Of a stretch of 23,269 nucleotides of DNA, positions 6,368 through 21,309 are shown in pieces. How positions within the stretch are numbered: the first letter of the stretch is position 1; each line of letters begins with the position of its first letter. The notes below the pieces were generated by a model. That model saw nothing but the letters and a program-made list of their open reading frames with translations, was not told where the DNA came from and ran no database searches. A program made the position numbers and the translations under genes. Source of the DNA: a virus. Location: positions 1 to 23,269 of the IMG/VR virus record IMGVR_UViG_3300006805_000169; one strand, 5' to 3'.

Positions 6368-6600
6368 ATTGTGGATCTTGCAGGATGTTCCAAGACCAGC
6401 CTATCATGGGCGTCTGCCGGTTATATCCACAAACGCAAAACAAGCAACGCACCGATTGGTGTGGTCAATTTGCTGCAATTGAAAACAGAAAAGTTGCAGA
6501 AGTACCTGTTTACGACATAATGACTGACACAATCAAACCGCAAGTTGTTGCCCGAATCAAACGAAAGTACGAGCGTAAAAATGTTCAAACCTCTGCGTGA
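6364..6600 (+). CDS. Cys4 metal-binding hypothetical protein, 78 aa
   Basis: Four N-terminal cysteines, C3 and C6 (CGSC), C18 (GVCRLYP) and C33 (DWCGQF), form the CxxC...C.R.P...DWCG pattern that recurs in short phage and bacterial proteins and probably binds zinc or an iron-sulfur cluster. The C-terminal half is basic and could contact nucleic acid (VVARIKRKYERK). It starts in the ATGA overlap with the previous gene and overlaps the GroES-like start by 20 nt. The function is unknown. Confidence 0.65.
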   Translation: MNCGSCRMFQDQPIMGVCRLYPQTQNKQRTDWCGQFAAIENRKVAEVPVYDIMTDTIKPQVVARIKRKYERKNVQTSA

Positions 6601-6850
6601 CCGTGTTGTTGTTAAACCCCAGGTAAGGCTATTGAGCGATCTAATTTATGTGGACAACAAGGAACCCTTTAACGAGGGCACTATTGTGGCTATAGGCCCA
6701 CTGGTGACGGATGTGGCGGTTGGTGACTTCATCAAGTACGGCAACGGCGACTATCTCAACTGGCCCACTCAAACGGAAGATGGTCAGGATTATCAAATCA
6801 TTCAAGAAGCTGACATTTGTGCAGTAGTGGAGTTTGAAAATGGCAAATAA
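6581..6850 (+). CDS. GroES-like co-chaperonin
   Basis: 89 residues, slightly shorter than bacterial GroES (about 95). The opening MFKPLRDRVVVKP is the classic GroES N-terminus. LIYVDNKEPFNEGTIVAIGP matches the mobile-loop-end and EG.V.AVGPG region, VAVGDFIKYGNGDY matches the VK.GD.V.Y strand, and DICAVVE matches the ILAVVE end. It would cap host GroEL, as T4 gp31 does, possibly to help fold the coat protein. No GroEL partner is visible. The internal ATG at 6581 is chosen because the same-frame upstream start at 6545 would add residues outside the fold. Confidence 0.82.
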   Translation: MFKPLRDRVVVKPQVRLLSDLIYVDNKEPFNEGTIVAIGPLVTDVAVGDFIKYGNGDYLNWPTQTEDGQDYQIIQEADICAVVEFENGK

Positions 6851-17602: not shown

Positions 17603-19141
17603 ATGGCGCTGACAAAAGTAACCTACTCGTTAATTCAAAACGCATCTGTCAACGTCAAAGATTTTGGCGCTGTTGGAGATGGCGTGGCAGACGATACGCA
17701 GGCAATTAAAGATGCCATTGCAGCTTGCTATTTACCCACCACAGGAAGCTCTGGGAGACAGTACGCAAAAGATTTGTATTTTCCCGTTGGCGATTATCGC
17801 ATTACAAGTTCAATTCAATTTGCGCCTGCTAATGGGTTAATTGGGTTTACTGTCTATGGCGACTCATCGGGATCGTCCAACATTTTTTACGAAGGTTTTG
17901 AAACTAATTTTCAATGCCAGTACAGCGCAGCTATTTTATTTAAAGACATTGCGTTTTGGTCATCTGGTGTTGACGATGACCAAGTGGCGTTTCGTGTTAA
18001 CTACCAGTCAGGAAATGTTCCGCTAAGAAATTGGAAATTTGAACGTTGCGCGTTTTGGTATTTTTACGAATGTTTTGATGTTACAGGCGACGCGCTGTGC
18101 AGCGAGTTTAATTTTCACGGCTGTTATTTCACGGACTGTTACTATTTGATGGGTAACTCCAACGATCAGGCAGTTAACTGGAACTTTGTCGATTGCAATT
18201 GGGAAAACGTAGACCTTTCTACAGTTAGAGCACTTGACGGCTCGGCAATTTTCTTTTTGTCCAAAGGTACTTCCGTAATTTGGACTGGTGGTTCTTTGAT
18301 TTTCCACGGTCGGATGGTATTTTTTAACCTGACCTCATCAGCATCGTTTGCTGACACATCTCACCGACTCACATTTCAAGGTGTTCGGCTAGAGCTTCCA
18401 CCAAACGGTTCTAACACCCACTCAACATTGTTGGACAAAACAGGCACAGGTTATGTGTCTGGCTCAAACTCCCCAACAGTGTCAATTGTTAATTCAACAA
18501 TATTTAACCGATCACCGATTGGTTTTGCGTTAAATTATTTTAATATATGGAATAACTGCAATTTTGTATTTGAAAACGTAGAGGTAAGCGGCGGTTATGT
18601 AACGGCAATTTACGATGCCAACACTGGCAGTCAAAACCCAAATTTGCGGATCATAAGTTGCAAGGGGCTGTTGTACGAAGAAAACACATCGGGCCGCGTT
18701 ACCAGTCATATTTCACCTAACGCAACGATTGTTCCAAATGATATGCAGAATCAATCGCTGCCTTTGATTGAAGTTCGCAATAATAATCTTTCTGTCACCC
18801 CAAGCAGTTCAGTAAAACGCATTTGGGTTCGTGGGCCAACAGGCTCATTGCCTCTTGGCGGCACTACGGTGAATCTTCCTGAACTGCAAGACCACTTCAC
18901 GCTAATCAATATTTTCTGTTATCGGTTTACGGTGGCGGCTTTTAATTTGACAGTTGAATTAAAAGACCAAGCAGACACCATTGTTTACGGAACCGTAACT
19001 GTCAATGCTGGTGTGACCAACGGACAAGGTTACATTGGCAAGGAAATGGGGTTTGAGATTCCAAGCGGAACCCCGTTGATGTTCAAGTTTACCGGCACAC
19101 CTGAGATTGTTAAAGGTGTAGCAGGATTAGAATATCTTTAA
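17603..19141 (+). CDS. Tailspike-like protein with parallel beta-helix
   Basis: 512 residues. The region at 16-40, VNVKDFGAVGDGVADDTQAI, is the standard opening of pectate-lyase-3/tailspike beta-helix domains. Residues about 75-380 have the regular short-strand pattern with many Asn/Phe/Trp rungs (FERCAFWYFYECFDV, FNFHGCYFTDC). The last ~110 residues form a beta-sandwich trimerisation or receptor-binding tip (LPLGGTTVNLPELQDHF). Such proteins bind and often hydrolyse surface polysaccharide. Catalytic acids cannot be fixed from sequence alone. The gene is visibly A+T-richer than the head genes, consistent with transfer of host-range DNA. Confidence 0.82.
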   Translation: MALTKVTYSLIQNASVNVKDFGAVGDGVADDTQAIKDAIAACYLPTTGSSGRQYAKDLYFPVGDYRITSSIQFAPANGLIGFTVYGDSSGSSNIFYEGFETNFQCQYSAAILFKDIAFWSSGVDDDQVAFRVNYQSGNVPLRNWKFERCAFWYFYECFDVTGDALCSEFNFHGCYFTDCYYLMGNSNDQAVNWNFVDCNWENVDLSTVRALDGSAIFFLSKGTSVIWTGGSLIFHGRMVFFNLTSSASFADTSHRLTFQGVRLELPPNGSNTHSTLLDKTGTGYVSGSNSPTVSIVNSTIFNRSPIGFALNYFNIWNNCNFVFENVEVSGGYVTAIYDANTGSQNPNLRIISCKGLLYEENTSGRVTSHISPNATIVPNDMQNQSLPLIEVRNNNLSVTPSSSVKRIWVRGPTGSLPLGGTTVNLPELQDHFTLINIFCYRFTVAAFNLTVELKDQADTIVYGTVTVNAGVTNGQGYIGKEMGFEIPSGTPLMFKFTGTPEIVKGVAGLEYL

Positions 19142-19183: not shown

Positions 19184-19477
19184 ATGGCGCTCTCAAAAAC
19201 TTTTGAACTTGATGGAAAAGTCTTTATTGAAACTGATGCTGGTAGAATTTTTAAACATCAAGAAAAAATTTCTATCGCCGCGTATATTAAAGTTGTTTCC
19301 ATTTCCGGAAATAAAACTTCAATAAATGCAGTTGTTTCTTTTTCTGAACAAGATGTGCTTTTTGAAAAAAATTACTGCCTCCCTGTAAAGTCCAACCAAG
19401 AAGCCAAAAATTTTATCGCTCAAGTGTATGAACACTTAAAAACACTGCCAGAATTTGCTGGCGCGACCGATTGTTAA
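19184..19477 (+). CDS. Small hypothetical protein downstream of the tailspike
   Basis: 97 residues, mixed alpha/beta: an N-terminal beta region (MALSKTFELDGKVFIETDAG), a core strand set IKVVSISGNKTSINAVVSF and a C-terminal helix NFIAQVYEHLKTLPEF. Small proteins of this type often follow tail fibre genes in phages and may be fibre chaperones or minor virion proteins. It shares the A+T-rich composition of the tailspike gene, suggesting the two moved together. A purine-rich AAAGAAAAG precedes the ATG. Confidence 0.65.
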   Translation: MALSKTFELDGKVFIETDAGRIFKHQEKISIAAYIKVVSISGNKTSINAVVSFSEQDVLFEKNYCLPVKSNQEAKNFIAQVYEHLKTLPEFAGATDC

Positions 19478-19520: not shown

Positions 19521-19757
19521 ATGTTAGAAAAAATTATCTCTGTTGATTTGATTGAAGTCATTGAAAATGGTGCTGTCCAAGTACGCACCAAAACTGCCAT
19601 CATGGAGGACGGCAAGCAGATCAGCGGCTCATTCCACCGTCACGTTGTTGCCCCAGGCGATGACTACAGCAAGCAGGACGCCCGTGTGAAGGCCATCTGC
19701 GCTGCAACGCATACGGCGGCTGTGGTGGCTGCTTACAAGGCTGCTGCCGAAAAATGA
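19521..19757 (+). CDS. Conserved hypothetical phage protein, 78 aa
   Basis: Contains ISVDLIEVIENGAVQVRTKT and SGSFHRHVVAPGDDYSKQDA, followed by an Ala-rich helix. The HRHV.APGDD block recurs, as I recall it, in small proteins near structural genes of aquatic phages. No known function. AGGAAA precedes the ATG, and the stop overlaps the HEXXH gene as ATGA. Confidence 0.7.
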   Translation: MLEKIISVDLIEVIENGAVQVRTKTAIMEDGKQISGSFHRHVVAPGDDYSKQDARVKAICAATHTAAVVAAYKAAAEK

Positions 19758-20017
19758 TCCGCACCGCCTCTGGCCCAATCTTGCGATACATGAAAGCCTG
19801 TGGCTTCCAGGGCTGGACATCGTTCTGGAATGTCATCTACATGGCTCCAGGCTATGAGTTGAACAATGCCTTAATCAGGCATGAAATGACGCACTTGGAG
19901 CAGATGCGGCGGGATGGCAAAGTGCTGTATGCCATCAAGTACACATGGTGGATGCTGCGCTATGGTTATAAAATGAATCCGTATGAAGTTGAGGCACGAG
20001 CCGCTGAACAACCTTGA
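19754..20017 (+). CDS. Minimal HEXXH putative metallopeptidase, 87 aa
   Basis: Contains HEMTH at 43-47 (zinc-binding His43 and His47, catalytic Glu44) and, 30 residues later, NPYEVEARAAE, where Glu78 or Glu80 could be the third ligand, as in gluzincin-type HEXXH+E peptidases. At 87 residues it is near the minimum for such a fold. An aromatic segment (YAIKYTWWMLRYGY) lies between. It sits in the structural region and might process a virion protein or act on the envelope during entry. Activity is inferred from motif only; a degenerate or non-peptidase role is possible. ATGA overlap with the previous gene. Confidence 0.65.
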   Translation: MIRTASGPILRYMKACGFQGWTSFWNVIYMAPGYELNNALIRHEMTHLEQMRRDGKVLYAIKYTWWMLRYGYKMNPYEVEARAAEQP

Positions 20018-20026
20018 AAGACAAAC

Positions 20027-20344
20027 ATGACACAAGAAGCATTCCAACCAATTGGTGCAACAGTTAACTTTACCGGCGCAACCAGTGCGCCAACGGCAGT
20101 GCAGCCCAACCCATCAAATGTGGTCAACACTAATTTTAGGTTTGTCAATACTGGTGCTGTGACCGTGTTTTTGGGAACTGGTACAACGTCAGCAATTGCT
20201 GTGACAGCTGCATCTGTAACCACCGGCATTCCATTAGTAGCTGGCGCTGTTGAAGTAATGAGTTTTCCTCAAGGAACATTCTTTACAGGCATCACTGCAA
20301 GCAGCACCGCGGTGGTCTACGTTACGCAAGGGCAAGGGCTGTGA
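20027..20344 (+). CDS. Putative small virion protein
   Basis: 105 residues, Thr/Ala/Val-rich and largely beta ([38 protein letters not shown]). It has no enzymatic motif. It lies immediately before the gp4-like gene, sharing its stop with that gene's GTG start (GTGA at 20341-20344). A head-tail or surface structural role is likely but unspecific. Confidence 0.62.
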
Positions 20345-21309
20345 CAACCCCCCAAGACATCATTAATCGGGCGCTGAAGGACGTTGGCGCTTTAGCTGCG
20401 GGGGAAACTCCTGCGGCAGCAGATTCGGCAGATGCGTTTGATATGCTGAACGATATGTGCGCTCAGTGGTCAAACGAAAACATGATGGTCTTCTATAAGA
20501 CTGAAATCATTTTTCCAACAACGCCCAACCAGGTGCAGTACACCATTGGCCCAGGTGGTCAGGTAGGCGCATCGTTTACAGGATCTATTGCTGGTACAAC
20601 CCTGACGGTCACTGCCATCACATCAGGCGCTATAGCGATTGGTCAAACCCTGTCAGGCACTGGCATTACCGCAGGAACCACCATTGTGGGCTTCACAACG
20701 GGCGCAGGCGGCAACGTTAACGAGGCAGGCACATACACTGTCAGCACCAACCAAACAACGACCAGCGGCACGATAGCAGCTTACTACGAGCGCCCCCTAA
20801 CCATTGAGAGTGCCTTTGTGCGGATTGCTACGATGCAGGGTGGCAGTTCTGTTGCTGGCGGTTACCTTGACTATCCTGTGGCCATTCTTGGTGCAGAGGA
20901 ATACCAGAGCATTGGTATTAAGCAGCTAAGTGGGCCGTGGGCTAAGGCCGTTTACTACCAGCCAAGCGAAGTTCTGGGGACATTGTTTGTCTATCCAAAC
21001 CCCAGCCAGGGCGAGTTGCATTTGTTTACTCAGACCATTTTTCGGCAGTTCAACGGCTATGCTGACTCTATCCAGCTGCCCCAAGGTTACAACAATGCGT
21101 TGCGGTGGTGTTTGGCGGAAAGGTTGATGCCTATGTACGGCAAGACCAATGCGACTACCATCGCAATGATTAACGCATTTGCTGCCCAAGCCAAGGCCAC
21201 GATCAAACGCACCAATATGCGTCCCCCCCAAGTTTCGCGTTATCCTGATGCACTGATGGTTGGCAAAGCCAAAGATGCCGGTTTTATCATGGATGGCGGT
21301 TTCCGTTAA
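20341..21309 (+). CDS. P22 gp4-like tail accessory factor with an inserted beta domain
   Basis: 322 residues, much longer than P22 gp4 (166). The N-terminus, [20 protein letters not shown], the [20 protein letters not shown] segment and the C-terminal [18 protein letters not shown] helix match the gp4 family, which binds the portal from below and begins the tail. Residues about 77-147 form a Thr/Gly-rich beta module ([32 protein letters not shown]), which appears inserted between the end of one family strand and [18 protein letters not shown] start in a GTGA overlap. Confidence 0.85.

Follow-up and report, generated by a model that had tools for sequence, protein, structure and literature searches.

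Zhang et al. (2012; PMC3482391) described the HExxHxxQ-E signature and proposed an autoproteolytic release. This signature characterises the eCIS core, also termed DUF4157 or PVC-metallopeptidase (PF13699), which forms the N-terminal domain of contractile-injection effectors. Loading, maturation or chaperone roles have been proposed for DUF4157 by eCIS authors (PMC8213781, PMC11297309). Furthermore, one eCIS effector has been reported to act independently of its metalloprotease motif (cited in PMC11297309).

In the published zincin-like layout, a three-stranded sheet is combined with three helices, one at the N terminus, one bearing HExxH and one bearing the Glu (PMC5512222; PMC3482391). The superfamily fold description has been applied to phage zincin-like metallopeptidases (MPTases), among them SprT-like, ArdC-like and polyvalent-protein MPTases (PMC5512222, PMC7824862). 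Small, single-domain HExxH proteins are represented by the mini-Glu-zincins proabylysin (4jiu; MEROPS M95) and selecase (4qhi), with chain lengths of 105 and 106 residues, and by the mini-zincin Acel_2062, which ends at Tyr113 (PMC3890501).

A conserved 87-aa phage gene and its relatives

The window, a stretch of 23,269 nucleotides from a freshwater-type phage, carries just after its tail-spike genes a plus-strand open reading frame (19754–20017) that begins with ATG at 19754, ends with the stop codon TGA at 20015–20017 and encodes 87 residues. The original prediction had singled out an HEMTH motif and an NPYEVEA pattern in this product. Both are present, at residues 43–47 (19880–19894, plus strand) and 75–81 (19976–19996, plus strand), respectively, and its numbering of E44 is correct. 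In HEMTH, H43 and H47 are putative zinc ligands and E44 is the putative catalytic base; in NPYEVEA, E78 (codon 19985–19987) is a putative third zinc ligand and E80 is a second invariant acid.

The ATG overlaps the TGA of a 78-aa open reading frame (19521–19757) in the arrangement ATGA, and no clear Shine–Dalgarno sequence was found ahead of the start of the 87-aa gene. From these features together, translation of the 87-aa gene is probably coupled to that of the 78-aa gene. In 64 of 80 close relatives, the start likewise overlaps an upstream frame that stays open for 60 codons or more; the open frame is the informative part of this count, as ATGA is partly dictated by the second codon.

Conservation was assessed in a close set of 81 colinear sequences (61 distinct at the DNA level, 60 at the protein level), retrieved by peptide patterns of which one sufficed per match and some contained parts of the motif, a source of selection bias. 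In all 61 distinct sequences, residues H43, E44, H47, Q50, Y63, G71, Y72, N75, P76, Y77, E78, E80, A81 and R82 are invariant. Silent codon changes are present at the putative ligand positions, and between these positions residue 45 takes seven different identities and residue 46 takes three. A median dN/dS of 0.119 over 841 pairs in the close set supports purifying selection on the gene. H43, E44, H47, Q50, Y63, G71, Y72, P76, E78, E80 and A81 are also invariant in a wider alignment of 47 rows, and the same residues are kept in distant relatives. On this comparative evidence the 87-aa reading frame is a real gene, in agreement with the original observation.

A bare HExxH motif is weak evidence by itself. 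It arises in 29 of 20000 shuffles of the 87-aa protein, and when each of 151 open reading frames in the window was shuffled, about 0.34 frames with HExxH were expected, against two seen. For the 87-aa gene, a chance origin of the motif is excluded by its conservation across relatives. The second HExxH in the window, in a minus-strand frame (1865–2122) that overlaps other open reading frames, is probably a chance occurrence.

A search of viral contigs returned 102 relatives, of which 80, with 75–98% identity, were kept, and an alignment-based pattern search of viral contigs found at least 208, with 80 kept. Members of the close family are 85–92 aa long. Distant relatives occur in a Pseudoalteromonas phage (47% identity) and in cyanophage-like contigs (125 aa). 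Pseudoalteromonas phage J2-1, a culturable relative, encodes a homologue of 98 aa. Phage C48C1 carries such a 125-aa relative beside a peroxiredoxin gene, away from tail genes. Distant relatives at L174 (5423–6001) and L083 (6213–6806) lie beside a 2OG-Fe(II) oxygenase-like gene (PHROG 81) or a peroxiredoxin gene.

A further 17 relatives were detected in bacterial genomes. On a contig of Amnimonas aquatica (L193, 224–478), HExxH is gone and AAKMKRIEQ stands in its place, but GYRNHPYEVEAR is kept; this may be a dead or repurposed copy. A long RHS-type protein in a Fibrobacter MAG (L209) bears a C-terminal HExxH...NPYEIEA domain that is related to the 87-aa family.

PHROG 37302, which has no assigned function, matches all 47 members of the wider alignment (E 5.6e-25 for the window protein). 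No curated Pfam or NCBIfam family reached its cut-off for the window protein, and NCBIfam gave nothing. Searches of the literature on phage metallopeptidases, zincins and DUF4157 brought up work on eCIS, toxins, jumbo phages and polyvalent proteins, besides unrelated papers, and found no paper on the 87-aa family; none was found under the name PHROG 37302. The family is an uncharacterised member of a known superfamily and is not categorically new.

Probable relationship to the eCIS core and predicted fold

The closest named relative of the 87-aa family is probably the eCIS core, at a considerable distance. This assignment rests on bacterial bridging proteins and on the common HExxHxxQ...E signature, the residues of which (H43, E44, H47, Q50 and E78) are invariant in the family. 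PF13699 is the only Pfam row for the window protein, which at 13.9 bits does not reach the gathering cut-off of 22; 13 of the 47 members match PF13699 at E values up to 1 (best E 0.011). Among ten bacterial relatives scanned, one from Methylotenera (L205) scores 38.2 bits, over the eCIS_core cut-off, three fall just under it (20.8–21.4 bits) and six have no eCIS_core match. Genome searches also revealed several bacterial places that are matched by models of both the 87-aa family and the eCIS core.

An eCIS profile was assembled from the 14 of 29 fetched loci in which HE..H..Q lies in a plus-strand open reading frame, the other 15 being dropped. Comparison of the family with these 14 segments by hhalign gave a probability of 41% and an E value of 2.8e-4 for one pair, in a register that aligns a strand 'IY' before the active helix as well as HExxHxxQ itself. 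In three eCIS-core proteins, the sequence ETEAD or EKEAD lies 31–32 residues after the start of HExxH. Its E-x-E-A register corresponds to E78-V-E80-A81 of the window protein, where the offset is 35, and it is from this register that E78 is put forward as the putative third zinc ligand.

In addition to the signature, the window protein and the eCIS core share predicted strands and two helices, which bear HExxH and the Glu, respectively. They differ in that the eCIS core is part of a larger effector, whereas the window protein is a lone 87-aa open reading frame in a phage spike cassette. Furthermore, a helix spanning residues 56–70, between the HExxH and Glu helices, and a GYxxNPYExEA block are found only in the window protein.

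Structure prediction had been put forward as a check on the original proposal. An AlphaFold2 model of the 87-aa protein was generated from the 47-row alignment, which draws on 24 of 80 close loci and on 5 of 23 and 17 of 21 loci from two further sets of relatives, with near-duplicates left out. The model is confident (mean pLDDT 93.1, pTM 0.80) and zincin-like, with a fitting order of elements: strand 2–4, helix 7–16, strands 20–22 and 28–30, helix 38–54 (HExxH), helix 56–70 and helix 76–83 (E78). H43 and H47 are placed one turn apart on predicted helix 38–54. The layout is that of published zincin-like proteins with one extra helix, and the modelled protein very probably adopts a zincin fold.

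A second-look structure alignment listed 33 entries with Z of at least 2, the best Z being only 5.0. Judged by their titles, 32 of the 33 are zinc metallopeptidases or share their fold, with 6cyj unsure; they include PprI, Spartan, PPEP, proabylysin, BlaR1, BepA, Zmp1, LTA4H, collagenase, Wss1, selecase and anthrax lethal factor. The aligned zinc metallopeptidases (PprI, Spartan, PPEP and so on) presumably hold HExxH. A plain Foldseek search of the PDB returned nothing at E ≤ 0.001, with DtxR in its top rows (TM about 0.22), and no PDB sequence match to the family was found with phmmer or a profile. In BFVD there were two strong matches, one of them (TM 0.80) an uncultured-phage entry named 'DUF4157 domain-containing protein', and SprT-like phage proteins appeared among the lower-ranked matches. 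The SprT-like family PF10263 was absent from the Pfam rows of the window protein (E values up to 1) and was matched by one of the 47 members (E 0.083).

Like proabylysin, selecase and Acel_2062, the window protein is small and single-domain and carries HExxH. Structural agreement with the first two is weak (proabylysin, 60 residues aligned at 3.3 Å, Z 3.1; selecase, Z 2.3). The close family is about 20 residues shorter than these aligned solved mini-gluzincins, and the suggestion of a very small protein is upheld, its length lying near the bottom of the known range. The fold description of phage zincin-like MPTases also fits the model of the window protein, although the polyvalent-protein MPTases are domains within multidomain proteins, unlike the stand-alone 87-aa protein.

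A tail-spike neighbourhood with an optional gene

The nearest large gene upstream of the 87-aa gene (17603–19141, plus strand) encodes a tail spike of 512 aa that includes a pectate-lyase-like domain (PF12708, E 5.9e-13; PHROG tail spike, E 1.2e-8). It is followed by a 97-aa gene (19184–19477, plus strand; PHROG 18037, function not assigned, E 2.7e-7), which lies between the tail spike and the plus-strand 78-aa gene (PHROG 6228, function not assigned, E 1e-19). Directly downstream of the 87-aa gene is a 105-aa gene (20027–20344, plus strand; cluster 2), whose product, folded from a single sequence, has a pLDDT of 41.5 and gives no functional clue.

Neighbourhoods were compared across 101 loci, one of which, L139, was set aside as its gene is not closed in its stretch. 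A PHROG 6228 gene is directly upstream in 44 of the 101 loci having a gene there, and the cluster of the 105-aa gene occupies the next downstream position in 67 of 99. The spike is itself a steady feature of these neighbourhoods: in 90 of 100 loci, one of the nearest four upstream genes encodes at least 250 aa. Scans of 64 of these 90 proteins gave matches to PF12708 in 40 and to tail-spike PHROG 2234 in 34, and for one the match was to a head-tail connecting protein. The 64 upstream proteins are very diverse, with a mean column identity of 10%, and on this ground the 87-aa protein is not supported as the partner of any specific spike.

Further downstream come genes for scaffold and capsid, for a head-tail adaptor (the case in the window), or for holin-like proteins and endolysins. 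This variety indicates that the spike cassette is a block found at different genome positions. The head-tail adaptor-like protein of the window (20341–21309, plus strand) matches PHROG 637 at residues 1–53. Its residues ~77–148 match tail-fibre PHROG 38233 and PHROG 21413, which resembles the insertion of a fibre-type domain, and the cluster median is about 70 aa shorter. Elsewhere in the window, an open reading frame at 6545–6850 (plus strand) resembles, by eye, a phage GroES co-chaperonin. An annotated co-chaperonin GroES adjoins the portal gene in Phage DSL-LC05, a named relative.

Among 64 loci with both flanking genes in order, 22 carry the HExxH gene and 42 do not. In 24 of these 42, the flanking genes are 13 bases apart. 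A scar consisting of the last ~25 bases of the gene is kept at the junction in 13 of the 42; the 64 loci are public-sample contigs, several of them near-identical and not independent events, and the number of independent losses is below 13. The scar test compared 36 bases, comprising the end of the HExxH gene and the spacer, and gave scores of 18–34 out of 36 in the 13 loci versus no more than 8 in the remaining 29. In a control test on seven scar loci, shuffled sequences scored at most 15, against 20–36 observed. Loss by deletion is the simplest reading, since the scar codes for the EARAAEQP end that is conserved in relatives elsewhere. In Phage DSL-LC05, the order is tailspike, 97-aa gene, PHROG 6228 relative and scaffold, with no room for an HExxH gene. 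The 87-aa gene is thus very likely to be accessory and dispensable.

In 4 of 59 loci that were initially counted as having no HExxH gene (e.g. L284), a 77-aa membrane-like protein takes its position. This protein starts MIPLDKQAHFWSG, lies directly after the PHROG 6228 relative and overlaps its neighbour.

Candidate functions of the 87-aa protein

On balance, we favour the reading that the gene encodes a single-domain metallopeptidase that is optional and made late, related to the eCIS core in a minimal, stand-alone form and with the host as its most likely target. Of the zinc peptidase proposed originally, a zincin-type domain with HExxH, a downstream Glu and a history of purifying selection is upheld, and enzyme activity stands as a prediction, albeit a likely one. 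H43 and H47, from a single helix, would hold zinc together with E78 from a later one, and E44 would activate a water molecule to cut the peptide bond. Coupling to the 78-aa gene would place production late, together with that of the tail-spike genes. The substrate may, at a guess, be a host protein, such as one of the envelope or of a defence system, cleaved late in infection or on release.

The choice of a host substrate is tentative, and we place it a little short of an even chance. A host target is preferred to an essential virion cleavage because the gene can be lost from lineages that live on, and because the adjacent spikes are so diverse. Similarly, presence and loss amid a retained spike cassette are more in keeping with a tool of use in particular hosts or conditions than with a step that assembly cannot do without. 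Given these patterns of absence and scarring, there is also no support for the idea that virion maturation or entry, the settings suggested at the outset, requires the protein. For a defence protein in particular, the late operon counts against the proposal, being an unusual site for an anti-defence gene.

A role in the virion or spike module would fit the steady spike neighbourhood, that is, the large upstream gene in 90 of 100 loci and the PF12708 and PHROG 2234 matches among the scanned proteins. The 87-aa protein might process the tail-spike module or help to assemble it, as a maturation peptidase or a chaperone-like adaptor in trans, analogous to the loading, maturation and chaperone roles proposed for DUF4157 in eCIS. 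Such a role is unlikely, however, given that the HExxH gene is missing from 42 of 64 loci that keep both flanks, that the adjacent spikes are extremely diverse and that the cyanophage relatives are located away from tail genes.

An accessory function in lysis, cutting envelope proteins or aiding release, seems quite unlikely. Of the 18 long relatives in which an endolysin was detected, 5 do have the HExxH gene less than 2 kb upstream of it, and in some loci the HExxH gene is followed by membrane-anchored, holin-like small genes (named by eye), but in 11 of the 18 more than 11 kb separate the HExxH gene from the endolysin, and in 2 the endolysin lies 5.4 kb upstream. Furthermore, an ordinary endolysin is already present in 18 of 20 long relatives (M15_3 in 11, GH24 in 7), neither type being found in G005 and G014; substitution for an endolysin is rejected on the same count.

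It is very unlikely that the protein is a structural or binding protein that keeps a zincin fold or metal binding and is not a protease. The Amnimonas aquatica copy, which lacks HExxH in an otherwise retained open frame, and the eCIS effector reported to have no need of its metalloprotease motif lend this some precedent, but every one of the 61 distinct close sequences has the putative catalytic residue E44, with variation at the neighbouring positions 45 and 46. Given the invariance of the putative ligand residues in the same sequences, the earlier suggestion of a structural relic is likewise not supported.

It is highly improbable that the protein is the phage counterpart of the eCIS core in free-standing form, encoded alongside tail spikes as a minimal peptidase or adaptor and acting in trans on whichever spike or cargo the phage has at the time; if true, this would show the job of DUF4157 before its incorporation into contractile injection effectors.

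For the favoured optional, host-directed metallopeptidase, as for the alternatives, function is directly testable in natural pairs of similar loci that have the gene, lack it or retain its scar. The family is common in viral contigs, with no curated function assigned to it, and the 87-aa protein offers a one-domain model for what DUF4157-type domains do.
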